Positions 12,695-63,395 of a stretch of DNA of 64,000 bases are shown here, one piece after another. Every line of letters starts with the position of its first letter. Positions within the stretch are counted from its first letter, which is position 1. The position numbers were made by a program, and so were the translations under genes. The notes beneath the pieces were generated by a model. That model was not told where the DNA came from and did no database searches. It saw only the letters and a list, made by a program, of their open reading frames with translations. The stretch comes from Sulfuricella sp. Its GTDB lineage: Bacteria; Pseudomonadota; Gammaproteobacteria; Burkholderiales; Sulfuricellaceae. The stretch is from positions 1 through 64,000 of the forward strand of contig JAHFRP010000006.1 of assembly GCA_023266195.1 (NCBI GenBank), in the 5' to 3' direction.

Positions 12695-12924
12695 CGCCGC
12701 CCCTCCTCGATCATCTCGCGTATTGCCATGCCCGAGGCATAACCCTTGGCGAACCCTTTCAGTTCACCGATCACCGCGTTAATGTCGCGTTTGGCCGTCG
12801 GCCTGGCGGGCACCAGCATCGCCACCGGGACCCCGTGCCGGGTAATGGTGACGCGCTCGCCCTGCTGCACGCGTTCCAGCAAGCTGGGCAAATGGGTTTT
12901 GGCCTCGTACGCACCGACTTCCAT
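12691..12924 (-). CDS. Phd/YefM-type antitoxin
   Basis: A 77-residue protein from the ATG at 12924 (MEVGAYEAKTHLPSLLERV), with GGAG just upstream; an in-frame TTG twelve bases earlier is less likely. The N-terminal YEAKTHLPSLLERVQQGERVTITRHG pattern is the Phd/YefM DNA-binding fold. The C-terminal tail, about residues 48–77, would bind and block the PIN toxin encoded next. Phd-type antitoxins paired with PIN toxins are common. Confidence 0.85.
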   Translation of the reverse strand: MEVGAYEAKTHLPSLLERVQQGERVTITRHGVPVAMLVPARPTAKRDINAVIGELKGFAKGYASGMAIREMIEEGRR

Positions 12925-12987
12925 GATTTTCTCCAAATTTAGACCAGATCAGACCAGTCTATGCTTGCCGACTTATTTCAGCAAGCA

Positions 12988-20687: not shown

Positions 20688-20936
20688 ATGCGCACCACCA
20701 TCGACATCGAAGACGACGTTCTCGCCGTAGCCAAGGAATTGGCGCGTGCGCAGCATGTTTCCGCAGGCCGGATTATTTCAAGGCTGGCGCGGGAAGCCCT
20801 GACCGGGCGCCGGCAGCAGGAACTGCCGGACAACGCCGCGACAGGGGCGGTGGGCGGCTTTCGCCCCTTCCCCGCACGCGGGACGATGGTCACCAATGAC
20901 CAGATCAACGATCTGCGCGACCAGGAAGGCGTTTAA
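20688..20936 (+). CDS. Ribbon-helix-helix antitoxin (VapB-like)
   Basis: An 82-residue protein starting MRTTIDIEDDVLAVAKELARAQHVSAGRIISRLAREAL, a clear ribbon-helix-helix DNA-binding start. The C-terminal part (about 45–82, GFRPFPARGTMVTNDQINDLRD) would wrap the toxin. AAGGAG lies upstream. Its stop TAA shares one base with the ATG of the PIN gene. A 32-bp nested palindrome precedes it. Confidence 0.85.
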   Translation: MRTTIDIEDDVLAVAKELARAQHVSAGRIISRLAREALTGRRQQELPDNAATGAVGGFRPFPARGTMVTNDQINDLRDQEGV

Positions 20937-21367
20937 TGAGGGCATTGCTGGACGCGAATGTGTTGATCGCGCTACTGGATGCCGGACACATTCACCATGC
21001 CTTGGCGATGTCCTGGCTGGAGCGCGAGATTCCGCACGGCTGGGCGTCTTGCCCGATCACCCAGAATGGTTGCGTGCGCATCATGTCCCAACCCGGCTAC
21101 CCCGGCGCCCTGCCGACGGCACTGGTTGCGGAGCGCTTGACGGAAGCCGGCGCAAGCCCGGACCATGAATTCTGGCCGGCAAACGTAAGTTTGCTCGGAG
21201 CCGGCTTGTTCGACTGGTCGCGCGTGATGGGGCACCGTCAGGTGACGGACGTTTACCTGTTATCCCTCGCCGTGCAACACGGCGGGCGGCTGGTGACTTT
21301 TGACCGGCGCATTGCTCCGGAAGCGGTGATGGGCGCAGGCCCGGAGCACCTCGTCGTTTTGGGCTAA
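20936..21367 (+). CDS. PIN-domain toxin (VapC-like)
   Basis: A 143-residue PIN protein. Visible active-site residues are Asp6 (LLDANVLIALLD), Asp105 (VTDVYLLSLA) and Asp123 (VTFDRRI). The usual mid-protein acidic residue is replaced by Asn44 in PITQNGCVRIM; several VapC subfamilies share this ITQNG/R pattern, so activity is still plausible. It is coupled to the RHH antitoxin. The stop codon is immediately followed by a 57-base perfect inverted repeat. Confidence 0.85.
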   Translation: MRALLDANVLIALLDAGHIHHALAMSWLEREIPHGWASCPITQNGCVRIMSQPGYPGALPTALVAERLTEAGASPDHEFWPANVSLLGAGLFDWSRVMGHRQVTDVYLLSLAVQHGGRLVTFDRRIAPEAVMGAGPEHLVVLG

Positions 21368-31432: not shown

Positions 31433-31653
31433 AATGCGCGATTTGCAAACATGGGTCAACCCAGCCGGGATTTGTCACGGTTACGCTCGAGCGCAACGGC
31501 TGCACCATCATTGTCCGCAATGTCCCCGCCGAAGTCTGCGACAACTGTGGCGAATACTATCTGTCCGAAGCGATCACCGATCGGGTGTTGAGTCGCGCCG
31601 ACGCCGCAATCAGGAATGGGGCGGAGGTCGAAATTCTGCGCTTCGCCGCATAA
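31429..31653 (+). CDS. YgiT-type zinc-finger antitoxin (MqsA N-terminal domain-like)
   Basis: A 74-residue protein with two CxxC pairs, Cys3/Cys6 (KCAICKHG) and Cys37/Cys40 (VCDNCGEYYLSE), forming the zinc-binding domain found at the N-terminus of MqsA. It has no C-terminal helix-turn-helix. Such short zinc-finger proteins regularly follow DUF4258 genes as the antitoxin. The ATG overlaps the original stop of the frameshifted toxin gene; AAGGAG lies upstream. Confidence 0.8.
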   Translation: MKCAICKHGSTQPGFVTVTLERNGCTIIVRNVPAEVCDNCGEYYLSEAITDRVLSRADAAIRNGAEVEILRFAA

Positions 31654-31871
31654 TCCACGGGCGCCGTGGGCTGCGCAATACAAGCCGCCCGTGACACCTA
31701 CGCTTCCCCCTGCATCATGACTCGCGCCACATCCACTCGGCGCTATCCAATCCGTCCTATCGCGCGCGCCCCTGACATCAATCCCCCGTCGGCCTATTTT
31801 CAGTCTCTTATATAAGATATATAATGCAAAAAAATTTTCGCCAATTAAAGGCGTGACGGTTTGACGAATCG

Positions 31872-31895
31872 TTTGTCGCATCTCCGGCCGACAAA
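31872..31895. promoter_or_regulatory. Perfect inverted repeat upstream of apbE–rnf (enhancer candidate)
   Basis: TTTGTCG (31872–31878) and CGACAAA (31889–31895) are exact reverse complements with a 10-base spacer. The site lies about 100 bases ahead of the sigma-54 promoter start, a normal distance for an activator binding site. It adjoins the TGT-N10-ACA element. Confidence 0.5.
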
Positions 31896-31896
31896 T

Positions 31897-31912
31897 TGTC
31901 CGCATCACGACA
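31897..31912 (+). promoter_or_regulatory. TGT-N10-ACA element, NifA-type upstream activating sequence
   Basis: TGT (31897–31899), ten bases, then ACA (31910–31912) matches the NifA enhancer consensus. It is about 85 bases upstream of the predicted sigma-54 start. The motif is short and could arise by chance, but its position and the adjoining dyad support it. Confidence 0.5.
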
Positions 31913-31964
31913 TTGGCTGCGGCCAGAGATTCATGCAACCGGCTGTTTAAATGTGGATTTACCC

Positions 31965-31981
31965 TTGGCATCGCTTTTGCT
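31965..31981 (+). promoter_or_regulatory. Sigma-54 (-24/-12) promoter of the apbE–rseC–rnf1 operon
   Basis: TTGGCATCGCTTTTGCT has the invariant GG (31967–31968) and GC (31979–31980) separated by exactly ten bases, with TTGGCA and TTGCT around them. Transcription would start near 31992, about 30 bases before the apbE ATG. This predicts dependence on RpoN and an enhancer-binding activator. The rest of the 369-base gap (31654–31964) holds an AT-rich tract and the two enhancer-like sites. Confidence 0.7.
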
Positions 31982-32022
31982 TTTGGCTGTATAACGGATC
32001 ACTTTTATCGAGGTCGCACGCT

Positions 32023-33021
32023 ATGCCCGTCGTCTTGTCTCGCCGCCGCTTCATCACCATCGCCGCCGCTGCCGTCGGCCTGCCGCTGCTGCTCCGGGCG
32101 GGCGGCTCCCAGGCCAGGCCGGTGCGCTGGGAAGGCCACGCGCTGGGCGCGCCCGCCTCGATCCAGCTCTATCACACCGACGAAGCCCAGGCGCGCGCCG
32201 CCATCGCCGCCGGACTGGACGAACTGAAGCGGCTGGAGGCGGTTTTCAGCGTCTACCGCGCCGACAGCGCCATTTCGGCGCTCAACCGCGACGGCGTGCT
32301 GGAAAATGCGCCGGCCGACTTCGTCGCGCTGCTCTCCCGCGCCCTGACCGTAGCCAAAATCAGCGACGGGGTCTACGACCCGACCGTGCAGCCCTTGTGG
32401 CAAACCTATTTCCGCCATTTCACCGCCGCGGTTCCCGACCCCGCCGGGCCGTCCCGGCGCGACATCGCCGCCGCGCTCGCGCTGGTGGACTGGCGCGCGG
32501 TCGAGCTGGATGCGGCCAACCGGCGCATCGCCTTCGCCCGGCCCGGCATGGGGCTGACGCTCAACAGCGGCGCCCAGGGCTACATCACCGACCGCGTCAC
32601 CGAAGTGCTGCGCGCCCACGGCTTCGACCGCATGCTGGTGGACATGGGCGAACCGCGCGCCCTGTCTACCAAGCCCGACGGCTCCGCCTGGCGCATCGGC
32701 ATCGCCAATCCCGCCGACCCCGGCCGCACCGTCACCACGCTGGAAGTGGTGGACAAATGCATCGCCACCTCGGGCGGCTACGGCACGCTGTTCGATCCCG
32801 ACGGCCGCTTCACCCATCTGATGGACACCCGCACCGGCCGCACCGCGCCGGCGCTTTTGGGCGTTTCGGTGGTGGCCGACAGCGGCACCGTCGCCGACGG
32901 CTTGTCCACCGCCATGCTGATGGCGCCGGCCGAGCGCCGCCAGGCCATCCTCAAGGCGGCCGGCGGCATCAAGGCCATTTTCGTCACGCCCGACGGCGTC
33001 GCCTCCACCGTGGACGCCTGA
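32023..33021 (+). CDS. apbE: FAD:protein FMN transferase ApbE
   Basis: A 332-residue exported flavin transferase from the ATG at 32023. It uses FAD to attach FMN covalently to threonines of proteins such as RnfG and RnfD. The N-terminus RRRFITIAAAAVGLPLLL is a twin-arginine-like or lipoprotein-free signal. ApbE patterns are seen: ALGAPASIQLYH, FSVYRADSAISALNRDG, LNSGAQGYITDRV, CIATSGGYG and the Mg-binding THLMDTRTG followed by ADSGTVADGLSTA. Its place at the head of the rnf operon fits maturation of the encoded complex. It overlaps rseC by one base. Confidence 0.92.
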   Translation: MPVVLSRRRFITIAAAAVGLPLLLRAGGSQARPVRWEGHALGAPASIQLYHTDEAQARAAIAAGLDELKRLEAVFSVYRADSAISALNRDGVLENAPADFVALLSRALTVAKISDGVYDPTVQPLWQTYFRHFTAAVPDPAGPSRRDIAAALALVDWRAVELDAANRRIAFARPGMGLTLNSGAQGYITDRVTEVLRAHGFDRMLVDMGEPRALSTKPDGSAWRIGIANPADPGRTVTTLEVVDKCIATSGGYGTLFDPDGRFTHLMDTRTGRTAPALLGVSVVADSGTVADGLSTAMLMAPAERRQAILKAAGGIKAIFVTPDGVASTVDA

Positions 33022-33548
33022 TGGACGCCCCGGCGGACGACACCCTGGATTTCAGCGCGCCGGCCATGGTCGAGGGCATCGCCCACGTCGTGGCGGTAGA
33101 GGGCGACCTGGCCTGGCTGGAACCCGAGCAGACCACCAGCTGCGGCAGCTGCGCCTCTTCCGGCGCCTGCGGCGCCAAAGGCATCGGCACCACGGCCAGC
33201 CGGCTCGAAGCGCGCCGCTTCTCGCTCGAAAACCATGCCGGCCTGGCGGTCGGCGAGCGGGTCGTGATCGGCATCCGCGAGAACGCGCTGGTGAAGGCTT
33301 CGCTCACCGCCTATGCCATCCCGCTCGGCACTCTGCTCGGTTCCGGCGCGCTGGCACAATGGGCCGCCGGCAGCGACGGCGTGACCATGGCGGCGATGTT
33401 CGGCGGCCTCGCGCTCGGCCTGGGACTGGCGCGCCTGAACGCGCGCCGGCTGAACACGCGGGGCGATCTCGCCCCCCGCTTCCTGCGGCGCGCCGACGAG
33501 GCCGCCGCCTGTCATCCAGTCACATTTAACAAGAAGGTTGGAGCATGA
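33021..33548 (+). CDS. rseC: SoxR-reducing/RseC family membrane protein
   Basis: A 175-residue RseC-like protein. The N-terminal part has the cysteine cluster CGSCASSGACGAKG (about residues 41–54); two hydrophobic helices follow (about 93–140). Relatives act with Rnf/Rsx complexes in reducing SoxR or in thiamine-related steps. It starts on the last base of the apbE stop and overlaps rnfA by four bases (ATGA), so it is part of the same operon. Confidence 0.88.
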   Translation: MDAPADDTLDFSAPAMVEGIAHVVAVEGDLAWLEPEQTTSCGSCASSGACGAKGIGTTASRLEARRFSLENHAGLAVGERVVIGIRENALVKASLTAYAIPLGTLLGSGALAQWAAGSDGVTMAAMFGGLALGLGLARLNARRLNTRGDLAPRFLRRADEAAACHPVTFNKKVGA

Positions 33549-34126
33549 AGGCATACATCCTATTGATGGTGAGCGCGGCGCTGGTCAACAACGTCATCCT
33601 CGCCCGTTTCCTCGGCCTGTGCTCGTTCATGGGCGTCACCACCCGCATCGACACCGCCGTCGGCATGGGCATGGCGACCACCTTCGTCATCACCGTTTCG
33701 TCGATGGCCGACTGGGCGGTCGAGACTTATCTGCTCCAGCCCTTCGGCCTGGGCTATCTGCGCACGGTGACCTTCATCCTGGTGATCGCCGCCGCCGTGC
33801 AGTTCACCGAAATGATCGTCAAAAAAGTATCGCCGCCGCTGTTCCAGATGCTGGGCATCTACCTGCCGCTGATCACCACCAACTGCGCCGTGCTGGGCGT
33901 CGCCCTGCTGCTGGTCGAAGGCCGCATGAGCTTCATCAGCGCCACGCTGTTCGCCTTCGCCTCGTCGGCCGGCTACACCCTGGTGATGGTGATTTTCGCC
34001 GGCCTGCGCGAGCGGCTGGCGCTGGCCGAGGTGCCGCGGATGTTCGCCGGCCCGCCCATCGGCTTCATCGTTGCCAGCCTGCTGGCGCTGGCGTTCATGG
34101 GTTTTTCCGGTATGAGTGCGAATTAG
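33545..34126 (+). CDS. rnfA: Rnf complex subunit A, set 1
   Basis: A 193-residue integral membrane protein with six predicted helices. RnfA and RnfE form the membrane core and hold a [2Fe-2S] cluster; the conserved cysteines are in GLCSFMGV (about residue 25) and TTNCAVLGV (about 113). It shares the ATGA junction with rseC. This set pumps ions while transferring electrons between NADH and ferredoxin. Confidence 0.95.
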   Translation: MKAYILLMVSAALVNNVILARFLGLCSFMGVTTRIDTAVGMGMATTFVITVSSMADWAVETYLLQPFGLGYLRTVTFILVIAAAVQFTEMIVKKVSPPLFQMLGIYLPLITTNCAVLGVALLLVEGRMSFISATLFAFASSAGYTLVMVIFAGLRERLALAEVPRMFAGPPIGFIVASLLALAFMGFSGMSAN

Positions 34127-34138
34127 GAGGATCTGACT

Positions 34139-34678
34139 ATGTTGATGGCTGTCGGCAGTCTTACGGTAATGGGCGTCGCCCTGGGCGGCATACTCGGCGC
34201 TGCGGCGCGCTTTCTCGCCGTGGAGGAAAACCCTCTCGAAGAGGAATTGAAGGCCATGCTGCCCGGCTCGCAGTGCGGACAATGCGGCTACGTCGGCTGC
34301 GGCCAGGCGGCCGCGGCGCTGGCGAAGGGCGAAGCCCCGGTGACGCTGTGCCCGCCCGGCGGCCGCGCCACGGCCGAAGCGCTGGCGAAGAAACTGGGCG
34401 TCACCGCCGATCTCTCCGAACATGAGGAAAAAGGTCCCGAATACGCCGTCGTGCTTGAGGAATTCTGCATCGGCTGCACGCGCTGCATCAAGGAATGCTC
34501 GGTGGACGCCATCATGGGCGCCAACAAGCTGATGCATTCGGTGATCGCCGATGTCTGCCACGGCTGCGGCAAGTGCGTCGTGGTCTGCCCCACCGAGGCC
34601 ATCGAAATGCGTCCGGTGCCGCTGACGCTGGGCACTTGGCACTGGGCCAAGCCCGAAGCCGGACACGCGGTGCATTAA
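34139..34678 (+). CDS. rnfB: Rnf complex ferredoxin-like subunit B, set 1
   Basis: A 179-residue protein with an N-terminal membrane helix (about 3–25), the four-cysteine cluster motif Cys46/49/54/71 (CGQCGYVGC), and two 4Fe-4S ferredoxin motifs, CIGCTRCIKEC and CHGCGKCVVVC. RnfB exchanges electrons with soluble ferredoxin. AGGAGG precedes the ATG, 12 bases after rnfA. Confidence 0.95.
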   Translation: MLMAVGSLTVMGVALGGILGAAARFLAVEENPLEEELKAMLPGSQCGQCGYVGCGQAAAALAKGEAPVTLCPPGGRATAEALAKKLGVTADLSEHEEKGPEYAVVLEEFCIGCTRCIKECSVDAIMGANKLMHSVIADVCHGCGKCVVVCPTEAIEMRPVPLTLGTWHWAKPEAGHAVH

Positions 34679-34689
34679 AGGAGCTGTAG

Positions 34690-36153
34690 ATGAAACTTTT
34701 CCCCATCCGCGGCGGCATCCACCCCGACTACCGCAAGGAACAATCAAGCGAGCGGGCCATCGTCGCCCTGCCGCTGCCCGCGCTGCTCTATATCCCCTTG
34801 CAGCAGCACATCGGCGCGCCGGCGGAAGTCCTGGTCAGCGAAGGGCAGGCCGTGAAAAAGGGCCAGATGATCGCGCGCAGCACCGGCGCGATCTCCGCCC
34901 CCCAGCACGCGCCGACCTCCGGCACCGTCAAGGCGGTGACCGAGATTCCCGCGCCGCACCCTTCCGGCCTGGCGCAGACCACCATCGTCATCGAGCCTGA
35001 CGGCCGCGACGAGTGGGCCGAGCTGCCCGCGGCCATCGCCGACCCATTCAGCGCCGACCCGCAGACCATCGCCGAGCGCGTTGCCCAATCCGGCATCGTC
35101 GGCATGGGCGGCGCGGCCTTCCCGTCGGCGGTCAAACTCAACCTCGGCAGCCGGTTCAAGCTCGACACCCTGCTCCTCAACGGCGCCGAGTGCGAGCCTT
35201 ATCTCACCTGCGACGACCGGGTGATGCGCGAGCACGCCGGCGAGATCGTCGACGGTGCCCGCATCATGGCCCACGCGCTGGGCGTGCCGCGTGTGGTGAT
35301 CGCCATCGAGGACAACAAGCCGCAGGCGATCGCGGCGATGACCGAGGCCGCCAGAGCGTTCGCCGAAATCGTCGTGGCGGGCGTGCCGGTGCAGTATCCG
35401 ATGGGCTCCGAGCGCCATCTGGTGCAGGCCATCACCGGCCGCGAAACGCCGGCGAAGAAGCTCACCGCCGACATCGGCGTGGTGGTGCACAACGTCGCCA
35501 CCGCCCGCGCCGTGCATCATGCCGTGCGCTTCGGCCGCCCGCTCGTCGCCCGGGTGGTGACGGTGAGCGGCGGCGCCGTGCGCGAAGCCAACAACATCGA
35601 AGCGCCGATCGGCGCGCGGGTGGCCGACCTGATCGCGTTCTGCGGCGGCTTCGCCAGCGAACCGGCCAGCCTGGTCAACGGCGGGCCGATGATGGGGCAG
35701 CCCCTGCCCGGCCTGGACGTGCCGGTGATCAAGGGCATGTCCGGCATCCTCGCGCTCACGGCGGGGGAAACCAACACGCAGCCGGCCAGCCCCTGCATCC
35801 GCTGCGGCACCTGCGTCAGCATCTGCCCGTGCGGGCTGGTACCGGTGGAGATGGCCGCCTTCATCCGCAAGGACAACTTCGAAGCCGCCGCCCGGCTCGG
35901 CGTGATGGACTGCGTCTCCTGCGGCAGCTGCTCGTGGGTATGCCCGTCGCACATCCCGCTGGTGCACTATTTCAACTACGCCAAGGGCATGATCAACGCC
36001 CAGGAACGCGACCGGCGCAAGAACGAGCAGACCAAGGTACTGGCCGAGGCGCACACCCTGCGCGTGGAAAAAGCGGCCGAAGCCCGGCGCGCGATGATGG
36101 CCGCCAAGAAGGCCCAGGCCGCCGCCAAAACCGAAGAAAAGGCCAACGCATGA
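34690..36153 (+). CDS. rnfC: Rnf complex NADH/FMN subunit C, set 1
   Basis: A 487-residue peripheral subunit that binds NAD(H) and FMN and two 4Fe-4S clusters. The start KLFPIRGGIHPDYRKEQSSE is typical; the nucleotide-binding segment GIVGMGGAAFPSAVKL lies at about residue 137. Cluster motifs are CIRCGTCVSICP (about 368) and CVSCGSCSWVCP (about 407). A charged, Ala-rich tail ends the protein. AAAGGAG precedes it; the stop overlaps rnfD. Confidence 0.95.
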   Translation: MKLFPIRGGIHPDYRKEQSSERAIVALPLPALLYIPLQQHIGAPAEVLVSEGQAVKKGQMIARSTGAISAPQHAPTSGTVKAVTEIPAPHPSGLAQTTIVIEPDGRDEWAELPAAIADPFSADPQTIAERVAQSGIVGMGGAAFPSAVKLNLGSRFKLDTLLLNGAECEPYLTCDDRVMREHAGEIVDGARIMAHALGVPRVVIAIEDNKPQAIAAMTEAARAFAEIVVAGVPVQYPMGSERHLVQAITGRETPAKKLTADIGVVVHNVATARAVHHAVRFGRPLVARVVTVSGGAVREANNIEAPIGARVADLIAFCGGFASEPASLVNGGPMMGQPLPGLDVPVIKGMSGILALTAGETNTQPASPCIRCGTCVSICPCGLVPVEMAAFIRKDNFEAAARLGVMDCVSCGSCSWVCPSHIPLVHYFNYAKGMINAQERDRRKNEQTKVLAEAHTLRVEKAAEARRAMMAAKKAQAAAKTEEKANA

Positions 36154-37223
36154 TCAACGCAATCAACAAGAGCGGCCCGTTCACCCACGGCGCCAGCAAC
36201 GTCCAGAAGACCATGTACACGGTGCTGCTGGCGCTCCTGCCGGCCACCGCCTTCAACGCCTACCTGTTCGGCTGGCCCGCGCTGCTGCTGTTCGTCGTCA
36301 CCGTCGGCGCCTGCGTAGTGATCGAGGCCGGCTGCCTGATCCTCGCCGACCAGCCGATGAAAGCAGCGTTCGACGGCTCGGCCGTGCTCACCGGCTGGCT
36401 GCTGGCGATGAGCCTGCCGCCCTGGGCGCCCTGGTGGATCGGCGCGCTCGGCGCGGTGTTCGCCATCGCCCTGGCCAAGCACACCTTCGGCGGCCTCGGC
36501 CAGAACATGTTCAACCCGGCCATGGTGGCCCGCGTCGCCCTGCTGGTGTCGTTCCCGGTCGTCATGACCGCCTGGGTCCTGCCGCATCCGCTGTTCTCGG
36601 CCAGCGCACCCGGCCTCGGCGACGCCCTCGCCATCACCTTCGGCGGCCAGATGCCCGACTCGGTGAGCGCAGCCTCGGCACTGGGCTACGTCAAGACCGA
36701 GCTGTCGCGCGGCATTCCGGTGACGCAATCGATGGCGCACGTACCCGACCTGATGGACATGGCGCTGGGCTTCCGCGCCGGCAGCATGGGCGAGACCTCG
36801 GCGATCCTGATCCTCGCCGGCGGCCTGTTCCTGATGGCGCGCCGCATCATCTCCTGGCATACCCCGCTCGGCGTGATGGGCGGGCTGTTCCTGATGGGCA
36901 CCCTGTTCCACGCCATCGACCCGGCCCGCTACACCGACGGCATGTTCCACGTGATGTCCGGCGCGACCTTCCTCGGCGCGTTCTTCATCGCCACCGACTA
37001 CGTCACCTCGCCGGTGTCGAAAAAAGGCCAGCTGGTCTTCGGCGCCGGCGTCGGCGTGCTGACCTGGGTCATCCGCACCTACGCCGGCTACCCCGAGGGC
37101 ATGGCGTTCGCCATCCTGCTGATGAATTCGCTGACCCCGATCATCGACCAATACACCCGTCCGCGCGCCTTCGGCCGCACGCTCAAAGGCGAACCGCTGC
37201 CGCTCGCGGGGAGAGATAAATGA
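36150..37223 (+). CDS. rnfD: Rnf complex subunit D (covalent FMN), set 1
   Basis: A 357-residue membrane protein with about ten helices. The flavinylation site is intact: Thr273 in HVMSGATFLGAFFIATDYV should carry FMN added by ApbE. The ATG overlaps the rnfC stop (ATGA); in-frame DNA further upstream belongs to a shadow of rnfC. RnfD is part of the ion-translocating core. Confidence 0.95.
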   Translation: MINAINKSGPFTHGASNVQKTMYTVLLALLPATAFNAYLFGWPALLLFVVTVGACVVIEAGCLILADQPMKAAFDGSAVLTGWLLAMSLPPWAPWWIGALGAVFAIALAKHTFGGLGQNMFNPAMVARVALLVSFPVVMTAWVLPHPLFSASAPGLGDALAITFGGQMPDSVSAASALGYVKTELSRGIPVTQSMAHVPDLMDMALGFRAGSMGETSAILILAGGLFLMARRIISWHTPLGVMGGLFLMGTLFHAIDPARYTDGMFHVMSGATFLGAFFIATDYVTSPVSKKGQLVFGAGVGVLTWVIRTYAGYPEGMAFAILLMNSLTPIIDQYTRPRAFGRTLKGEPLPLAGRDK

Positions 37224-37819
37224 AACCGAGCACACTAAAACATGGAGTGATTCTGGGCACGTTCTGCCTCGGCTTCGGCCTCATGCTCGCCGTCACCGAC
37301 CGCCTCACCGCCGCGGACATCGCCGCGCGCGCCCTGGAAGACCGGATGAACTCGCTGTCCCAGGTGATTCCCAACGGCATCCACGACAACAACCCGGTGA
37401 CCGACACCGTCGCCCTGAAAGACGACCGCGGCCGGGACATCACCGTCTACCGCGCCCGCAAGGACGGCAAGGTGACCGGCGTGGCCTATGAAATCTACGG
37501 TTCGGGCTATGCCGGCGAGATCAAGCTGATGATGGGCGTGGATGCCGACGGCAAGATCCTCGGCGTGCGCGTCCTGGCGCACCACGAAACGCCGGGCCTG
37601 GGCGACAAGATCGAAGAAAAGAAAACCGACTGGATCCTGCGCTTCACCGGCCTGTCGATCGGCAACCCGCCGCTCGACAAGTGGAAAGTAAAGAAGGACG
37701 GCGGCCAGTTCGACCAGTTCGCCGGCGCCACCATCACGCCACGCGGCGTGGTCGGCGCGGTCCGCGGCGGGCTGGGATTCTTCGCCGCCAACAAGGCAAA
37801 AATGACGGAGGTAAACTAA
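37220..37819 (+). CDS. rnfG: Rnf complex subunit G (covalent FMN), set 1
   Basis: A 199-residue protein with one N-terminal membrane helix (about 8–28) and a periplasmic FMN-binding domain. The ApbE acceptor site is DQFAGATITP, with Thr171 as the expected FMN-linked residue. VLAHHETPGLGDKIEEKK is a conserved segment of the family. It overlaps rnfD by four bases. Confidence 0.95.
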   Translation: MKPSTLKHGVILGTFCLGFGLMLAVTDRLTAADIAARALEDRMNSLSQVIPNGIHDNNPVTDTVALKDDRGRDITVYRARKDGKVTGVAYEIYGSGYAGEIKLMMGVDADGKILGVRVLAHHETPGLGDKIEEKKTDWILRFTGLSIGNPPLDKWKVKKDGGQFDQFAGATITPRGVVGAVRGGLGFFAANKAKMTEVN

Positions 37820-37820
37820 T

Positions 37821-38495
37821 ATGGCGACCCAATACCGCACCATCGTCCGCGACGGTCTGTGGGACAACAACGGCGTGTTCAGCATGCTGCTCGGCATGTG
37901 CCCCACCATGGCCATGACCACCAGCGCCACCAACGGCCTCGGCATGGGCATCGCCACCGCCGTGGTGATGGCCGCCTCCAGCCTCCTGGTGGCCACCTTC
38001 CGCAACCAGATCACGCAGGAAGTGCGCATCCCGGTCTACATCCTGATCGTCGCCGCCATGGTGACGCTGGTCGATCTGTGCATGAACGCCTGGATGCACG
38101 AGCTGTACAAGGTGCTCGGCCTGTTCATCCCGCTGATCGTTTCCAACTGCCTGCCGCTGGCGCGCCTCGAAGCCTTCGCCGCCAAGGAGCCGGTGCTGCC
38201 GTCGTTCCTCGACGGCCTGTTCATGGGCGTCGGCTTCACCTTCGCGCTCACCGCCATCGGCGCGGTGCGCGAGATTTTCGGCTCGGGCACGCTGTTCGCC
38301 GACGCCTCGCTGCTGCTGGGGCCGGCCTTCAAGGTCATGGAAATGCGTCTGATGCCGTCCGACATGGGCGTGCTGATGATGATCCTGCCGCCCGGCGGCT
38401 TCCTCGTCACCGGGCTCCTGGTGGTGGTCAAGCGCATGCTCGACGTCCGCGCCGGCAAGGCCATCCAGATGGGCGGCGCCCACAGCGCGGCGTAA
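37821..38495 (+). CDS. rnfE: Rnf complex subunit E, set 1
   Basis: A 224-residue six-helix membrane protein homologous to RnfA. Conserved cysteines are in LGMCPTMAMT (about residue 26) and VSNCLPLARLEAFA (about 109). It begins with WDNNGVF, a common start in RnfE. It starts one base after the rnfG stop, with GGAGG overlapping the rnfG end. Confidence 0.95.
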   Translation: MATQYRTIVRDGLWDNNGVFSMLLGMCPTMAMTTSATNGLGMGIATAVVMAASSLLVATFRNQITQEVRIPVYILIVAAMVTLVDLCMNAWMHELYKVLGLFIPLIVSNCLPLARLEAFAAKEPVLPSFLDGLFMGVGFTFALTAIGAVREIFGSGTLFADASLLLGPAFKVMEMRLMPSDMGVLMMILPPGGFLVTGLLVVVKRMLDVRAGKAIQMGGAHSAA

Positions 38496-38505
38496 GGAGA
38501 CGGCC

Positions 38506-38790
38506 ATGAAAATCGGAATCGCCTATGCCCAGCCGAACCGCCAGGTCTGGCTCAACGTCGAAGTGCCGGAAGGCGCCACCGTCAAGGACGCCATCGAGTG
38601 TTCCGGCATCCTCAAGCAGTTCCCCGAAATCGACCTGGAGCAGCAGAAGGTAGGCATCTTCAGCAAGCTCGCCAAGCTCGACGCCGCACTCGAAGACGGC
38701 GACCGCGTCGAAATCTACCGCCCCATCATCTGCGACCCGAAAACGGTGCGGCGCAAGGCCAAACCGGAAGGCGAGGAAGAGGAAGCGTAG
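38506..38790 (+). CDS. rnfH: RnfH family ubiquitin-like protein
   Basis: A 94-residue beta-grasp protein (PF03658). KIGIAYAQPNRQVWLNVEVPEGATVKDAIECSG and VGIFSKLAKLDAALEDGDRVEIYRPI match RnfH. Its function is uncertain; it accompanies Rnf in nif-linked clusters and otherwise sits near ratA. AAGGAG lies ten bases after rnfE. A REP-like hairpin begins four bases past its stop. Set 2 has no rnfH. Confidence 0.9.
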   Translation: MKIGIAYAQPNRQVWLNVEVPEGATVKDAIECSGILKQFPEIDLEQQKVGIFSKLAKLDAALEDGDRVEIYRPIICDPKTVRRKAKPEGEEEEA

Positions 38791-38892: not shown

Positions 38893-39291
38893 CTACACCC
38901 CCAGCACCTCCACCTTGGGCATGGCATCCATGCTTTCCGCCTGCCGGCCAAAAGGCTTGTCGAAGGTGCAGAAAGCCTCTTCGGCGACGCTTAGGGCGAG
39001 ATGGAGCGCGTCGCCGAAATCCATTCCCTGCTCGAACCATTGCAGCGCGTAGCAGAGCGCCTCGAATTCCTTCGGCTTGAAGTTGGGGAGGCCGAACAGC
39101 AGGCGCAGCGCCTTGGCAATTTCTTCCCGGGCACAGCCGTTCACTTTGAGCACCCACACCAGTTCGAGCAAAACCGTCGGCGGGGCGGTGAAGGTTTGAT
39201 TCCGGGACAATAGCCGCGCGGCCGCTGCTGCCTGACCGACGTCGTCGTTGAGCAGGTAGCGGGCCAGGACGTTAGTGTCGAGCGCGATCAT
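38893..39291 (-). CDS. PIN-domain toxin (VapC-like)
   Basis: A 132-residue PIN protein. Active-site candidates are Asp5 ([13 protein letters not shown]), Glu43 (LLELVWVL), Asp91/Asp94 ([11 protein letters not shown]) and Asp111 (FCTFDKPF). The full-length fold suggests a working RNase toxin. It overlaps the AbrB-type antitoxin by four bases. The pair lies between rnfH and pyrD on the opposite strand, so it is an accessory insertion. Confidence 0.87.
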
Positions 39292-39557
39292 TCCTTGGTG
39301 GCCTCGTCCGCATCTTTAAGCATGTCGCCGATGGCAAGGTCGGTTTCTTGCTCGTTCAATGGCTTCCGGCCTTTCCGCGCAAGGAAGCCGATGCCGTTTT
39401 CCACTCGGGTGGCGGCGAATACGGGGAGGGGCTTCAGCCGGATTTCATCGCCCACAAAGGCTATGACGAACTCCGTCCCCGCCGACAAGTGGTGGATATC
39501 CCTGATTTCCTTGGGAATGACGATTTGACCTTTGGTCGAGAGTTTAACGGTTTCCAT
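39288..39557 (-). CDS. AbrB/MazE-type antitoxin (VapB-like)
   Basis: An 89-residue protein from the ATG at 39557 ([24 protein letters not shown]); a TTG eight codons upstream is the alternative. The [13 protein letters not shown] stretch is the swapped-hairpin AbrB DNA-binding domain. The C-terminal part contacts the PIN toxin. Two direct repeats GTCTTAC and a TATATA box lie just upstream (39571–39594, minus strand) and may be its operator and promoter. Confidence 0.85.
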
Positions 39558-39740
39558 GGCGGCGGATTGGTAAGACGACAAGTAAGACTATATACCAAGG
39601 ACGTTCCAAGCGCACTCGGAGCAGGGCTGCGTCCTTTTGACAACGGTCGTCCCGCCGCGCAAACAACGCCCGTCCCGAAAGCGTTACCCACGCTGACTTC
39701 CGGGTTGCCATCCGCCGCCGGTTCGGGGGTAAAATGGCGT

Positions 39741-40823: not shown

Positions 40824-41936
40824 ATGCTGATTGGCGTACCGAAGGAAATCAAGGACTACGAATTCCGCGTCGGCGTGACGCCGGCCGGCGTCCGTGCCCT
40901 GGCCGATGCCGGCCACCAGGTATTGATCGAAAGCCATGCCGGCGAGCGCATCGGCTTCGACGACGCGCTCTATCTCGCGGCCGGCGCGAAAATCGCCGCG
41001 ACTCCCGCCGAAGTGTATGGCTGTCCGCTGGTGGTGAAGGTGAAGGAGCCCCAGCCGAGCGAGGTCGCGCTGCTCATGGAAGGCCAGGTGCTGTTCACCT
41101 ATTTCCACCTCGCCGCCGACCCCGTCCTTGCCAGCCGCCTGATGGAAAAGAAAATCGTCGCCGTCGCCTACGAAACCGTGACCGACGCGGCGAACTCCCT
41201 GCCCCTGCTCACGCCGATGTCGGAAGTCGCGGGCCGGATCGCCATCCAGGCCGGCGCCACCGCGCTGCACCTCGCCAACGGCGGCTGCGGCGTGCTGCTC
41301 GGCGGCGTGCCGGGCGTTTCCCCGGGCAAGGTGGTGATCCTCGGCGGCGGCACGGTGGGCGCCAACGCCGCCAGGATGGCGCTGGGACTGGGGGCGGAAG
41401 TCACCCTGCTCGACGTCAGCCTGCCGCGGCTGCGCCATCTGGAAGACGTGTTCGGCGCGCGCCTCAAGACCCGCTTCGCCGAGGCCCACGCCATCGCCGA
41501 GCTGACCGCGGGCGCCGACCTGGTGGTGGGCGCGGTGCTGGTGGCCGGAAAACGGGCGCCGAAGCTGCTTACCCGAACTCTCGTCCAGCGCATGAAACGC
41601 GGAGCGGTTTTCGTGGACGTTTCCATCGATCAGGGCGGTAGCAGCGAAACTTCGCGCCCCACCACCCACTCCAATCCAATTTATATCGAGGAAGGCGTGG
41701 TGCATTATTGCGTCACCAACATGCCGGCGGCCTGCGCCCGCACCGCGACCCAGGCGCTGACCAACGCCACCCTGCCCTATGTGCTGGCGCTGGCCGGCAA
41801 GGGCTGGAAGGACGCGATGAAGGCGGACCACGGGCTGCGCAACGGGCTCAACCTGCATCTCGGCCAGGTGACCCACGCCGGACTCGCCGCCGACCTGGGA
41901 TATCCGTGGGCTGCGGCGGAGACGGTGCTGGGCTAA
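40824..41936 (+). CDS. ald: Alanine dehydrogenase
   Basis: A 370-residue NAD-dependent enzyme interconverting alanine and pyruvate plus ammonia. The start MLIGVPKEIKDYEFRVGVTPAGV is diagnostic; KVKEPQPSE holds the substrate Lys, and VVILGGGTVGANAARMALGLGAEV is the NAD site. Length is normal. AGGAGAATGCTCCG precedes the ATG. Its TAA is part of a 10-bp duplication made by the MITE insertion that starts three bases later. Confidence 0.95.
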   Translation: MLIGVPKEIKDYEFRVGVTPAGVRALADAGHQVLIESHAGERIGFDDALYLAAGAKIAATPAEVYGCPLVVKVKEPQPSEVALLMEGQVLFTYFHLAADPVLASRLMEKKIVAVAYETVTDAANSLPLLTPMSEVAGRIAIQAGATALHLANGGCGVLLGGVPGVSPGKVVILGGGTVGANAARMALGLGAEVTLLDVSLPRLRHLEDVFGARLKTRFAEAHAIAELTAGADLVVGAVLVAGKRAPKLLTRTLVQRMKRGAVFVDVSIDQGGSSETSRPTTHSNPIYIEEGVVHYCVTNMPAACARTATQALTNATLPYVLALAGKGWKDAMKADHGLRNGLNLHLGQVTHAGLAADLGYPWAAAETVLG

Positions 41937-41939
41937 ATA

Positions 41940-42111
41940 CAATACTGTTCACCTACGCGAAGTTTTTCATGTAGGTTGGGTTGAGCGGTTTTATCGCGCA
42001 ACCCAACAAACTTTATCATCATTAAAAACAATATGTTGAAGATTGGGTTTGTTGGGCTAAAAAACCAGCCCAACCTACATGGGGACGGGCGGCACTTAAG
42101 TAAACAGTATT
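41940..42111 (-). mobile_element. 172-bp MITE-like element, copy 2 (inverted)
   Basis: The same length and structure as 3050–3221 but in reverse orientation. Ends are CAATACTGTTCACCTACG and, on the other strand, CAATACTGTTTACTTAAG. Perfect 10-bp target duplications GGGCTAAATA flank it at 41930–41939 and 42112–42121; the left one contains the ald stop codon. It fills most of the gap between ald and the second rnf operon. Confidence 0.88.
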
Positions 42112-42159
42112 GGGGCTAAATAACCAGAACTACGGAAAACATGAGGTTTCAAGGCGAAA

Positions 42160-42738
42160 ATGGAACACTACTTTTTCATCCTGATCGGCACGGTGCTGGT
42201 CAACAACATCGTGCTGGTCAAGGTGCTGGGGCTATGCCCGTTCATGGGCGTGTCCAAGAAGCTCGACGCGGCCGTCGGCATGGGTGCGGCGACGGCTTTC
42301 GTGCTGACCCTGGCTTCCGGCATGAGCTACCTGGTGGATCGCCACCTGCTGATTCCCAACGACCTCGCCTACCTGCGCACGCTGTCGTTCATCGTGGTGA
42401 TCGCCGCCATCGTGCAGTTCACCGAAATGTTCATCCGCAAATCCAGCCCGGTGCTGTACCAGTCGCTGGGCATCTACCTGCCGCTGATCACCACCAACTG
42501 CGCGGTGCTCGGCGTGCCCCTGCTCAATGTGCAGGAAAACCACAACTTCGTCGATTCGCTGCTTTATGGGCTGGGCGGCGCCGTCGGCTTCGCCCTGGTG
42601 CTGGCCCTGTTCGCCGCCATGCGCGAACGGCTCGAAGGCGCGGCCATTCCGGCGCCGTTCCGGGGTTCATCCATCGCCATGATCACGGCGGGCTTGCTGA
42701 GCCTGGCGTTCATGGGCTTCGCGGGGCTGGTGAAATAA
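42160..42738 (+). CDS. rnfA: Rnf complex subunit A, set 2
   Basis: A 192-residue six-helix membrane subunit, paralogous to the gene at 33545. Cluster cysteines are in GLCPFMGV (about 25) and TTNCAVLGV (about 112). It is the first gene of the second rnf operon. Only 48 bases separate it from the MITE-like element, and no sigma-54 motif is seen, so it may be constitutive or depend on read-through from ald. Confidence 0.95.
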
Positions 42739-42739
42739 C

Positions 42740-43294
42740 ATGTTGAGTGCCATCCTGGTCATGATCTTGCTGGGCGTCGTGCTGGGCGCCATCCTCGGTT
42801 ACGCGTCGATCAAGTTCAAGGTCGAGGGCAACCCGATGGTCAAAAAAGTCGGCGCCGTCCTGCCGCAGACCCAGTGCGGGCAATGCGGCTACGCCGGCTG
42901 CGGCCCCTACGCGGAAGCGGTCGCCAGGGGCGAGGCCGCGCCCAACCTGTGCGTGCCGGGCGGCGATGCCGTGGCAAAAAATCTGGCCGACCTGCTCGGC
43001 GTCGAATTCCAGCCGGTCGGCGGCGGCGAGGGCGCCGGGCCGAAACCCAGGCAGGTCGCCTTCATCGACGAAAACAACTGCATCGGCTGCACCGCCTGCA
43101 TCAAGGCCTGTCCGGTGGACGCCATCGTCGGCGCATCGAAGCTGATGCATACCGTCCTGCCCGACCGCTGCACCGGCTGCGAGCTGTGCGTGCCCGCCTG
43201 CCCGGTGGACTGCATTTCGATGGTGCCGCTGGAGGAGAGCATCGCCAACTGGAAATGGCGCTACCCGGTCATAGAAATTAAAAAGGCGGCGTGA
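42740..43294 (+). CDS. rnfB: Rnf complex ferredoxin-like subunit B, set 2
   Basis: A 184-residue protein with a membrane helix at about 4–22, the cluster motif Cys46/49/54 plus a later Cys (CGQCGYAGC ... LCVPGG), and two ferredoxin motifs, [11 protein letters not shown] and [11 protein letters not shown]. It resembles the E. coli RsxB type more than its set 1 paralogue, for example in the [18 protein letters not shown]-terminus. It starts one base after the rnfA stop. Confidence 0.95.
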
Positions 43295-43298
43295 GGAA

Positions 43299-43358
43299 TT
43301 CAGTTCTTAATTCTGAAATTTGAATGCTTAATTAAAAAAACTTGAAATTCAAAATTGC
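43299..43358. repeat. AT-rich repeat between rnfB2 and rnfC2
   Basis: AATTCAGTTCTTAATTCTGA, TTTGAATGCTTAATTAAAA and TTGAAATTCAAAATTG resemble the block at 22705–22783. It widens an otherwise tight operon junction to 66 bases. Confidence 0.45.
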
Positions 43359-43360
43359 TC

Positions 43361-45025
43361 ATGCTCCACAAATTCCACGGCGGCGTGCACCCGCCGGAAC
43401 ATAAAGCCGAATCGAATAGCCTGCCGATCGGCGCGGCGCCGCTGCCGCGTCGCTTGGTGGTACCGCTGCGCCAGCACATCGGCGCGCCCGCCAGGCCCGT
43501 CGTCGAGGTCGGCGACCGGGTATTGAAGGGCCAGATGATCGGTGCGGCCGACGGCTTCGTCTCCGCCGCCGTGCATGCGCCCACGTCGGGCATCGTCAGC
43601 GCCGTCGATCTGCACGCCGTGCCCCATCCGTCCGGCCTGCCCGACCTGTGCATCACCATCGACGCCGACGGCGAAGAGCGCTGGATCGAGCGCCAGCCGC
43701 TGGATTATCTCGCCGCCGACCGCGACGCGGTGCGCGCGCGGCTGCGCGATTTCGGCGTCGTCGGCCTGGGCGGTGCGGTGTTCCCGACATCGATCAAGCT
43801 CGACCCCGGCGCGCTCAGAATCGGAACCCTGGTGCTGAACGGCGCGGAATGCGAGCCCTGGATCACCTCCGACGATAGGCTGATGCGCGAGCGCGCCGCC
43901 GAAATCGTCGAAGGCGTCAAAATCATGGCGCACCTGGTGCAGCCGGAACGAGTCCTGATCGGCATCGAGGACAACAAGCCGGAAGCCGTCACGGCGATGC
44001 GCGCCGCCTGCTCGGGAACGAATTTCGAGGTGGTGGCGGTGCCCGCCCAGTATCCGGGCGGCGGCGAGAAGCAGCTGATCCAGGTGCTCACCGGCAAGGA
44101 AGTGCCCAGCGGCGGGCGCCCGGCGAACATCGGCGTGCTGTGCGCCAACGCCGGCACGGCCTATACCGTGCACCGCGCCGTCAACCACGGCGAGCCGGTG
44201 ATTTCCCGCATCGTCACTGTCACCGGCAACGTGGAAAAACCGCAGAATTTCGAGGTTTTGATCGGCACACCGCTGTCCGAAATGGTGCAACTCGCCGGCG
44301 GCGCCAAGGCCGGCACCAGCCACTACATCGTCGGCGGTCCGATGATGGGCTTCGACCTGAACAACCTGGCCGTTCCCGTCGCCAAGGCGGTCAACTGCGT
44401 GATCGCCGCCTCGCCCGCGCTGTTTCCGCCCAAGCCGGCGGCCGTGCCGTGCATCCGTTGCGGCCAGTGCGCAGAGGTCTGCCCGGCCAGCTTGCAACCG
44501 ATGGAGCTGTTCTGGTTCTCGCAAAGCCGGAATTTCGACAAGGCGCGCGCCTACAACCTGTTCGACTGCATCGAGTGCGGCTGCTGCAGCTACGTCTGCC
44601 CCAGCCACATCCCGCTGGTTTCCTATTACCGCTTCGCCAAAAGCGAGATCGCGGCGCAGGAGCGGGAGAAAAAGGCGGCCGAGCAGGCCAAGGCCCGTTT
44701 CGAGTTCAAGCAGCTGCGCGAGGAACGCGAGAAGGCCGAAAAAGCCGCCCGCTTCGCCGAGAAAGCGGCGGCGGCCAAGGCTGCGGCCGGCGAAGGCGAC
44801 GACCCCGCTGCCGCGGCGAAAAAAGCCGCGATCCAGGCCGCGGTGGAACGCGCCAAGGCGAAGAAGGCCGAGGCGGCGGCGCAGGCCGGACAATGCGACG
44901 TCACGCCCATCGCGGCGGTCGAGACGCCGGCCGAATCCCTCTCCCCTTGCCCTCTCCCGCCAACGGGAGAGGGGGACTTGGAGTCGCTGCGCGACGGCTC
45001 GCTTAATACAACGGAACCCCCATGA
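43361..45025 (+). CDS. rnfC: Rnf complex NADH/FMN subunit C, set 2
   Basis: About 554 residues from the ATG at 43361 (MLHKFHGGVHPPEHKAES). Nucleotide-binding GVVGLGGAVFPTSIKL and cluster motifs CIRCGQCAEVCP and CIECGCCSYVCP are intact. It is longer than set 1 because of an Ala/Lys-rich coiled region (REEREKAEKAARFAEKAAAAKAA). The last 30 residues (SLSPCPLPPTGEGDLESL...) are translated from the dispersed repeat family seen at 1429 and 21423. The stop overlaps rnfD2 by four bases. Confidence 0.94.
   Translation: MLHKFHGGVHPPEHKAESNSLPIGAAPLPRRLVVPLRQHIGAPARPVVEVGDRVLKGQMIGAADGFVSAAVHAPTSGIVSAVDLHAVPHPSGLPDLCITIDADGEERWIERQPLDYLAADRDAVRARLRDFGVVGLGGAVFPTSIKLDPGALRIGTLVLNGAECEPWITSDDRLMRERAAEIVEGVKIMAHLVQPERVLIGIEDNKPEAVTAMRAACSGTNFEVVAVPAQYPGGGEKQLIQVLTGKEVPSGGRPANIGVLCANAGTAYTVHRAVNHGEPVISRIVTVTGNVEKPQNFEVLIGTPLSEMVQLAGGAKAGTSHYIVGGPMMGFDLNNLAVPVAKAVNCVIAASPALFPPKPAAVPCIRCGQCAEVCPASLQPMELFWFSQSRNFDKARAYNLFDCIECGCCSYVCPSHIPLVSYYRFAKSEIAAQEREKKAAEQAKARFEFKQLREEREKAEKAARFAEKAAAAKAAAGEGDDPAAAAKKAAIQAAVERAKAKKAEAAAQAGQCDVTPIAAVETPAESLSPCPLPPTGEGDLESLRDGSLNTTEPP
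44937..45003. repeat. Dispersed CCCTCTCCC/GGAGAGGG repeat inside the rnfC2 coding end
   Basis: CCCTCTCCCGCCAACGGGAG and flanking GGGGGAC...TCGCTGCGCGACGGCTCGC match the module at 1429–1548 and 21423–21491. Here it is in frame and codes for the C-terminal tail of RnfC. Confidence 0.7.
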
Positions 45026-46050
45026 GCTCACCCCACGTCCTCACCCCCGGCAGCAGCGTCAGCCGCATCATGCTCACGGTGCTCGCCGCGCTCGTGCCGG
45101 CGATCGCCGCCTACGTTTATTTCTTCGGCCCGGCCATCTTGATCAGCCTGACGCTCGCCAGCATCACCGCACTCGCCGCCGAGGCCGCTGTCCTGCGCCT
45201 GCGCGACTACCCGGTGAAGCATTTCCTGTTCGACGGCAGCGCGCTGCTCACCGCCTGGCTGCTGGCGCTGTCCATCCCGCCGCTGGCGCCGTGGTGGCTG
45301 ATCGTGGTCGGCACCGCTTTTGCCGTCATCGTCGCCAAGCATCTCTACGGCGGTCTCGGCAACAACCTGTTCAACCCGGCGATGGCCGGCTTCGCCGTGC
45401 TGATGATTTCCTTCCCCTCGTTCATGACCCACTGGCCGGCGCCGCTCGCGTTGGCGCAGCACACGGTCGGCTTCGGCGACGCGCTGCGGTATTATTTCAG
45501 CGGCGGCCTGCCCGGCGCCAGGCTCGACGCGGTGACCATGGCGACTCCGCTCGACACCCTGAAAACCCAGCTGAGCCTGCAGCACACCATGGACGAGGTG
45601 AAGCGGATGCCGATCTTCGGCAGCTTCGGCGGCAAGGGCACCGAAACCGTCGCCGCGATGTACCTGCTGGGCGGGCTGTTCCTGCTGAGAAAACGCATCA
45701 TCACCTGGCATACCCCGGTTTCCTTTCTCGTCGCCTTGATTGCCGTTTCCGCCTTTTTCAACAGCATCGACGCCAGCCGCTACGCCACGCCGCTGTTCCA
45801 CCTCTTCACCGGCGGCGCCCTGCTCGGCGCATTCTTCATCGCCACCGACTACGTCACCGCGCCGGTCACGCCGCGCGGCAAGCTGATCTTCGGCACCGGC
45901 GTCGGCGTGCTGGAATACCTGATCCGGGTGTTCGGCGGCTATCCCGACGGCATCGCCTTTTCCGTCCTGATCATGAACGCGGCCGTGCCGCTGATCGACG
46001 CCTACACCCAGCCGCGGGTCTACGGCCACAACACCGGGAAGACGCCATGA
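45022..46050 (+). CDS. rnfD: Rnf complex subunit D, set 2, lacking the FMN-attachment threonine
   Basis: A 342-residue membrane protein with about ten helices, clearly RnfD (LYGGLGNNLFNPAMAGFAV, FFIATDYVTAPVTPRGKLIFG). Where set 1 has SGAT, this protein reads LFTGGALLGAFF, so the flavin-accepting Thr is Ala266. Either it carries no covalent FMN at this site or FMN is bound differently. The ATG overlaps the rnfC2 stop. No frameshift or truncation is visible. Confidence 0.93.
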   Translation: MSSPHVLTPGSSVSRIMLTVLAALVPAIAAYVYFFGPAILISLTLASITALAAEAAVLRLRDYPVKHFLFDGSALLTAWLLALSIPPLAPWWLIVVGTAFAVIVAKHLYGGLGNNLFNPAMAGFAVLMISFPSFMTHWPAPLALAQHTVGFGDALRYYFSGGLPGARLDAVTMATPLDTLKTQLSLQHTMDEVKRMPIFGSFGGKGTETVAAMYLLGGLFLLRKRIITWHTPVSFLVALIAVSAFFNSIDASRYATPLFHLFTGGALLGAFFIATDYVTAPVTPRGKLIFGTGVGVLEYLIRVFGGYPDGIAFSVLIMNAAVPLIDAYTQPRVYGHNTGKTP

Positions 46051-46697
46051 GCAGCCATATCCTGCGCCACGCATCCAGCTCCGCCGCCATCCTCGCCGCC
46101 TTCGCCATCGTCGGCACCGCGCTCTTGGCGGCCACCTACACGGTGACGCGGCCGATCATCGCCGAGACGGAAAAACAGGCCAAGCTCGCCCTGATCGGCC
46201 AGATCCTGCCGAAGACGCTGTACGACAACGACATTCTGAAGGATGCCGCACAGCTGCCGCCGGCGGAAGCGCTGGGCAACCGCGACGCCACGCCGGTGCT
46301 GCGCGCCACCAAGGACGGCAAGCCCTCCGCCGCGGTGCTGGAAGTCACCGCGCCCGACGGCTACAGCGGCAGGATCAGGATGATCGTCGCAATCAGGGCG
46401 GACGGCGCGGTTTCAGGCGTGCGCGTGGTGTCACACAACGAGACACCGGGCCTGGGCGACTATATCGATATCGCCAAGAGCCCCTGGATCGGGGTGTTCG
46501 AGGGCAAGTCGCTGGCGAACTATTCCGACCGGGACTGGAAAGTCACCAAAGACGGCGGCAAGTTCGAGCACATGGCGGGCGCGACCGTGTCGCCGCGCGC
46601 GGTGGTGAAGGCGGTGCATAAATCCCTGCAATATTTCGCCGCCCACCGGGACGACATCTTCGCGCTGCCGGCCTATCGTCAGGAGTCCGCAAAATGA
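46047..46697 (+). CDS. rnfG: Rnf complex subunit G (covalent FMN), set 2
   Basis: A 216-residue protein from the ATG at 46047, with a membrane helix at about 12–32 and a periplasmic FMN domain. The acceptor motif [10 protein letters not shown] keeps Thr180, although the usual Asp before it is Glu. [21 protein letters not shown] is conserved. It overlaps rnfD2 and rnfE2 by four bases each. Confidence 0.94.
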
Positions 46698-47389
46698 ACC
46701 AGGTCAACTACAAGGAAATCGTCTGGAACGGCGTCTGGAAGAACAATGCCGGCATCGTCGCCCTGCTCGGGCTGTGCCCCCTGCTCGCCGTCAGCGCCAC
46801 CGTGGTCAACGGCCTGGGACTGGGGCTGGCCACCGCCATCGTGATGGCGTTCAGCAACGCGGCGGTCTCGGTGGTGCGCAACTGGGTGCCGAACGAAATC
46901 CGCATCCCCGTCTTCATCCTGATCATCGCCGTTCTGGTGACCATCATCCAGCTGGCGATGAACGCCTACATGCAGCCCTTGTACCTGGTGCTGGGCATTT
47001 TCGTGCCGCTCATCGTGGTCAACTGCAACGTGCTCGGCCGCGCCGAAACCTTCGCCTCGAAAAACGCGCTGGCGCCCTCCATCGTGGACGGCTTCATGGT
47101 CGGCTTCGGCCTCACACTCACCCTCGGCGTGCTGGGCGCGCTGCGCGAAGTGTTCGGCAAGGGCACCCTGTTTTCCGGCATCGACCTGGCGCTGGGCGAA
47201 TCGGCCAAGGGCATGGTGATCACGGTTTTTCCCGACTACCAGGGCTTCCTGTTCGCCATCCTGCCGCCCGGCGCCTTCCTCGGCCTGGGGCTGATGATCG
47301 CCGGCAAGAACTGGATCGACCAGCGCGGGGCAAGAAAAACAGAAAAAACGCAGATCATCGGCAACCTTCAAACGGACACGGGCTCGTAG
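46694..47389 (+). CDS. rnfE: Rnf complex subunit E, set 2
   Basis: A 231-residue six-helix subunit starting [21 protein letters not shown], close to E. coli RsxE. Conserved cysteines are in LGLCPLLAV and [13 protein letters not shown]. Its TAG stop lies inside the first unit of an inverted REP-like pair. No rnfH follows. Confidence 0.95.

Positions 47390-62015: not shown

Positions 62016-63391
<1,376 letters not shown>

Positions 63392-63395
<4 letters not shown>

Follow-up and report, generated by a model that had tools for sequence, protein, structure and literature searches.

The 64,000-nucleotide window analysed here (positions 1-64000 of contig C12 of a Sulfuricella genome, G000, assembled as 3.12 Mb in 36 contigs) carries an operon for the Rnf pump that is headed by apbE, the gene for a flavin transferase. 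The genes lie on the plus strand in the order apbE-rseC-rnfABCDGEH, which is backed by Pfam matches, and the rnfABCDGEH set is full. They comprise apbE (32023-33021; PF02424), an rseC-like gene (33018-33548; PF04246), rnfA (33545-34126; PF02508 and gene order), rnfB (34139-34678; PF04060 and Fer4 domains), rnfC (34690-36153; TIGR01945 with 576.6 bits, PF13375, best PDB match 8ahx_C), rnfD (36150-37223; PF03116), rnfG for the flavin mononucleotide-binding subunit (37220-37819; PF04205), rnfE (37821-38495; PF02508 and gene order) and rnfH (38506-38790; PF03658). The ATG at 32023 was taken as the start of apbE; the in-frame ATG at 31951 would be an alternative.

Three elements that an earlier note on this DNA had described are present ahead of apbE. 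Nearest the gene is a predicted sigma-54 (-24/-12) promoter on the plus strand, TTGGCATCGCTTTTGCT, at 31965-31981, with GG at 31967-31968 and GC at 31979-31980 (GG-N10-GC), from which a transcript would be expected to start near 31992. The NifA-type upstream activator site TGTCCGCATCACGACA at 31897-31912 matches the pattern TGT-N10-ACA exactly; its centre is ~87 bases 5' of the expected start, close to the ~85 bases that had been given for it. Adjoining this site is a perfect dyad, TTTGTCG-N10-CGACAAA, at 31872-31895. The promoter motif is weak by itself, as a loose pattern allowing up to three mismatches matched the window 91 times against 124 expected. The activator pattern occurs twice in the whole 64 kb, and the combination of activator site and promoter with a gap of 40-90 bases was seen in none of 400 dinucleotide shuffles of the window. 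A plasmid search using the promoter region gave no match.

The earlier note had predicted a diazotroph whose nif genes lie at a distance, and the genome bears this out. Matches above the NCBIfam cut-offs were obtained for nifH, nifD, nifN, nifA (734.8 bits), draG, modA and modC, and also for nifB, nifK, nifE and nifV. The nif genes (nifHDKENB, nifV and nifA) are all on contig C15, at ~230-284 kb of 538 kb, and therefore the rnf operon, at 32 kb on C12, is at least ~260 kb away from them whatever the order of the contigs. Location inside a nif cluster is common, though not essential, for nitrogenase-linked Rnf; here rnf is on C12 and nif on C15. Sixteen sigma-54 activator matches were found in the genome, 12 of them strong, with one of these inside the window, and it is through these 12 domains that the presence of rpoN is implied. 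Within the window, positions 62019-63395 of the minus strand encode an NtrC-family sigma-54 response regulator, the best NCBIfam match of which, to AtoC, is below the cut-off.

The pair of control signals recurs at nitrogenase genes. The strict promoter pattern TGGCAY-N5-TTGCW matched 13 places genome-wide, compared with two for a reversed control, and three of the 13 have TGT-N10-ACA within 400 bp upstream, namely those before apbE-rnf, nifB and nifH. Likewise, a combined pattern with a gap of 48-78 bases found three places in the genome (nifB, nifH and rnf) against one control match, nifB and nifH being the further promoters with both sites that the earlier note had proposed to look for. A looser version, with the activator site up to 160 bp away, was run on ~355 kb of the 3.12 Mb and found five sites, ahead of nifB, nifH, nifE, nifV and rnf. 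Over 27 genomes the combined pattern gave 63 matches (one place in G019 was counted twice) against seven for controls; 17 of the 63 fall in the 15 genomes where no nifH match was found, and therefore the pattern alone is no proof of NifA control. One strict sigma-54 match without TGT-N10-ACA lies between modA and modE (C15:253636-253651), beside an AT-rich box that is presumably ModE-like.

These signals make it highly likely that the apbE-rnf operon, far from nif, is under a NifA-dependent sigma-54 promoter at 31897-31981. As the pair is also found ahead of nitrogenase genes at other places in the genome, the Rnf pump is very probably switched on together with nitrogen fixation. How this would proceed we infer from what is established about NifA, ApbE and Rnf. 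Under a shortage of fixed nitrogen, NifA would bind at TGT-N10-ACA and contact RNA polymerase-sigma-54 at TTGGCATCGCTTTTGCT, and transcription of apbE-rseC-rnfABCDGEH would open near 31992. ApbE would flavinylate Rnf subunits, and the membrane ion gradient would allow Rnf to drive electrons from NADH (reduced nicotinamide adenine dinucleotide) to ferredoxin or flavodoxin, which would in turn serve the nitrogenase, whose genes are on C15. Transcription for other needs would come from a second promoter, of the sigma-70 type, probably regulated by a GntR-family protein.

The closest named relatives in the tree that we built are Sulfuricella and Gallionellaceae. Among 12 apbE orthologues with at least 80% identity (that of G000 included), both signals were found in G000 and its nearest relative G001, and the promoter only in G015. 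Across 65 named apbE loci (419,698 bases), the strict sigma-54 pattern, which was written after the sequences had been seen, matched six times on the apbE strand; all six matches lie within 350 bp upstream of apbE, a zone that holds 5.4% of the bases (binomial P = 2e-8). The other strand of the same loci gave three matches, all elsewhere. In locus L104, which is the same contig as in G001, the sigma-54 promoter is kept and the activator site is exact. L115 and L136, from the other, Gallionellaceae branch of the tree, have TGGCATCGCTTTTGC in common with the window and an activator site with one mismatch. Counted from the start of the activator site, the -24 T is reached after 69 bp in the window and in L115 and L136, and after 70 bp in L104. 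Two alphaproteobacterial loci, L145 and L152, have a strict promoter and an exact upstream activator site at other distances. The nifB and apbE genes of G001 are ~34 kb apart on a single contig; because nifB and apbE-rnf share that contig (C16; stretches L226-L228) but occupy C15 and C12 in G000, the region has been rearranged.

The state of the promoter was compared with the presence of nifH for the window and 49 of the 65 named loci, the other 16 being left out. A nifH match was found in 14 of the 48 genomes; that of L136 is below the cut-off and interrupted by a contig end, and the L136 genome has four NifDKEN-family matches. A promoter core was recognisable in 16 of the 50 loci, with shuffle P values reaching 0.017 before any correction, which means that roughly one of these calls should be false. 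Both GG and GC are intact in six of these cores: the window, L115, L131 and L136, which are nifH-plus, and L104 and L128, where nifH was not found. In the remaining 10 the GG or the GC is lost, and nifH was found in none of the corresponding genomes. Nor was there a NifDKEN match in the nine of these 10 genomes given that search, L166 not being entered under that name. Fisher's test of intact core against nif gave P = 0.008, or 0.0014 with L104 counted as nif-plus, as it is labelled in the tree. Moreover, in the 11 nif-minus cores (L104 excluded) the GG/GC positions were changed in 15 of 44 cases compared with 7 of 99 for columns 5-13 of the core, numbering from 0 (P = 9e-5), and adding the T before and the C after the GG to the comparison columns gave 16 of 121 (P = 0.006). 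A recognisable core is no commoner with nif (4/16) than without (12/34); it is intactness alone that tracks nif.

L104, where the promoter is present and no nifH or nifDKEN match was found in G001, appeared to be a counterexample and was set aside. Its contig holds nifB and breaks off within draG, the end being ~2 kb from the place where nifH is expected from the gene order of the window's genome, and the G001 genome is 85% complete; it probably has other nif genes. The nif-less Gallionellaceae L113, L119, L120 and L125 have a further TGGCA-N6-TTGC-like block ~107-130 bases before apbE, which falls near where the activator site lay.

Several points weigh against NifA-dependent control and its coupling to nif. 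The promoter TTGGCATCGCTTTTGCT deviates from TGGCACG-N4-TTGCW at two positions, and the one-mismatch activator site is one of four such sites in 420 bases at L115 and one of three at L136. L131 has the promoter without TGT-N10-ACA, and L128 retains GG and GC without nif. No core could be recognised at 12 of the 16 nif-plus loci, or at 11 if L145, with its other strict promoter, is not counted; the close relatives L105, L107 and L108 are among them, and G014 is likewise coreless. The absence of nifH is absence from assemblies whose completeness is unstated, and since in addition the loci share ancestry, the P values given above are optimistic.

A different driver of the operon is suggested by a sigma-70-like promoter, TTTTCA-N17-TATAAT, on the plus strand at 31797-31825. 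It matches at 10 of 12 positions and is the best such site of the region (three sites in 31650-32060 against 0.7 expected); part of the apbE transcription could therefore arise independently of the sigma-54 site. Between its -35 and -10 elements lies a palindrome, TCTTATATAAGA (31806-31817), which is a putative operator for a protein of the GntR family. Perfect copies occur at three places in the genome (window 31806-31817, C34:196393 and C4:17693), and copies with at most one mismatch at seven, against two in the control. The perfect copies stand before apbE-rnf, before sat-aprB, and, at a distance of 65 bases, before a GntR/UTRA regulator gene with a malic-enzyme gene behind it. Through TCTTATATAAGA, rnf may be linked with sulfur oxidation and with central carbon metabolism. 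Six of the 65 named loci have the palindrome block TCTTATATAAG at most 350 bp from apbE: L104 and the five relatives without the sigma-54 site L106, L107, L108, L112 and L166. The palindrome was not found in papers on GntR or Betaproteobacteria, among the matches listed. On this evidence the sigma-70-like promoter could be the main driver, acting through TCTTATATAAGA and a GntR-family protein, with the sigma-54 site a minor or silent remnant. We consider this very unlikely, however: in the nif-plus genome of the window the activator site and the -24 and -12 elements are all intact, in nif-minus relatives GG and GC are altered more often than the columns between them, and the two promoters could both act. 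The reading of the region in the earlier note is supported; two things that had escaped it are the sigma-70-like promoter with its palindrome and the fact that the sigma-54 site has decayed in relatives without nif.

The sigma-54 promoter might also be real and yet serve another enhancer-binding protein, for example one that binds the TTTGTCG dyad. The 12 strong activator domains, including the one in the window, offer candidates for such a role, and the perfect dyad adjoins the activator site. Against this, TGT-N10-ACA is exact and of the same kind as the sites before nifB, nifH, nifE and nifV, and the dyad is not significant, being expected by chance: the window holds 164 perfect 7-bp inverted repeats with spacers of 4-16, or 0.31 per 120 bases, and 16 of them have a spacer of 10. 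The earlier note had doubted that the dyad is a plain NifA site, with good reason. We rejected it as such, as its TGT-to-ACA spacing is 14 and not 10, its spacer is 9 in the nearest relative (L104), and L115 and L136 lack its left arm. The right arm is conserved, and the dyad is probably incidental. Control by another enhancer-binding protein is accordingly, in our estimate, highly improbable, and NifA is the activator that we favour.

Some nif-plus relatives without the rnf promoter have nifV-fixABC instead. We found nifV with enough downstream sequence in eight genomes and judged fixABC in the sequence after it. In six of these, G004, G010, G012, G014, G019 and G021 (stretches L232, L233, L236, L244, L253 and L254), nifV is followed by fixABC, which was named from NCBIfam matches below cut-off, Pfam ETF and ETF-QO domains and gene order; G000 and G072, both of which have the rnf promoter, have nifV without fixABC behind it. 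The activator site and a sigma-54 promoter precede nifV in at least six of the eight, G000, G072, G012, G014, G019 and G021, and nifV itself is over the cut-off in G000, G072 and G014. No nifH match was found in G021, no apbE match in G012 or G019 and only a distant one in G021. The stretches examined of G003, G006, G009 and G015 contained no nifV, and the sequence of G092 ends soon after that gene. Within this sample of eight genomes, one of them without a nifH match, the arrangement suggests that the NifA-controlled electron route differs among close relatives; it does not allow the claim that NifA-driven rnf and fixABC exclude each other.

A tentative history, which we hold to be somewhat less than an even prospect, would be that rnf of the Sulfuricellaceae and Gallionellaceae was ancestrally a target of NifA and sigma-54 and was released from this control at least two times. 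One release would have taken place in some diazotrophs, where NifA came to drive nifV-fixABC instead and rnf was left to the GntR/sigma-70 promoter, perhaps in common with sulfur-oxidation genes; the other in iron oxidisers that lost nif, where rnf was kept for another job and the sigma-54 promoter decayed. If this is true, iron oxidisers without nif would have in rnf a former nitrogen-fixation operon that was put to new use and in which a relic of the old switch can still be read. In a betaproteobacterial lineage that has been little studied, the promoter ahead of apbE ties nitrogenase, at the level of sequence, to an rnf operon lying apart from it. The decayed promoters, together with the nifV-fixABC alternative, make the role of Rnf in nif-less genomes testable.

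Control of rnf by NifA and RpoN has already been published for Rhodobacter capsulatus, Azoarcus sp. BH72 and Alphaproteobacteria. The R. capsulatus rnfABCDGEH genes have putative NifA and RpoN sites, and expression of an rnfA-lacZ fusion was strongly reduced in a nifA double mutant; that operon belongs to nitrogen-fixation cluster A and is named from rnfA, whereas the present one is off the nif contig and begins with apbE-rseC (PMC6925177). Azoarcus sp. BH72, like G000, has two rnf clusters, of which rnf1 but not rnf2 is induced under N2; rnf1 is positively regulated by NifA and has RpoN and NifA sites before rnfA1, but it lies within the nif cluster and its NifA sites are in tandem, while here a single canonical site stands before an operon away from nif (PMC3916325). 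Among Alphaproteobacteria, which are another class, rnf is part of the predicted NifA regulon of Rhodospirillales, Rhodobacterales and Sphingomonadales; the rnf genes of R. sphaeroides lie apart from nif, as here, and the passages of that source on these regulons do not mention an apbE-first order (PMC4999443). Azotobacter vinelandii Rnf1 can reduce the electron donors of nitrogenase, and deletion of apbE is equivalent to deletion of rnf1; apbE adjoins sthA in that organism, whereas here it heads the rnf operon (PMC12811062). A pangenome study of Gallionellaceae describes Rnf in genomes without nifDHK, in passages that leave its function open (PMC10734462). Among the papers listed by literature searches, no title deals with this apbE-rnf promoter or its decay, which is no proof of absence.

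The window contains a second rnf cluster at 42160-47389, ~3.4 kb beyond the end of the first, with rnfA at 42160, rnfC at 43364-44659 and an rnfE-like open reading frame at 46694. No sigma-54 site was seen in 41900-42160 as read, nor did the pattern scan of the window find one there. The RnfC of the first cluster matched 8ahx_C with 540.5 bits and that of the second with 465.6 bits, with no Rnf2 chain among the matches; 8ahx is, we presume, A. vinelandii Rnf1. Elsewhere in the window, three small gene pairs, at 12281-12936, 20688-21367 and 38893-39581, resemble toxin-antitoxin modules, and the larger gene of each pair has a PIN domain.
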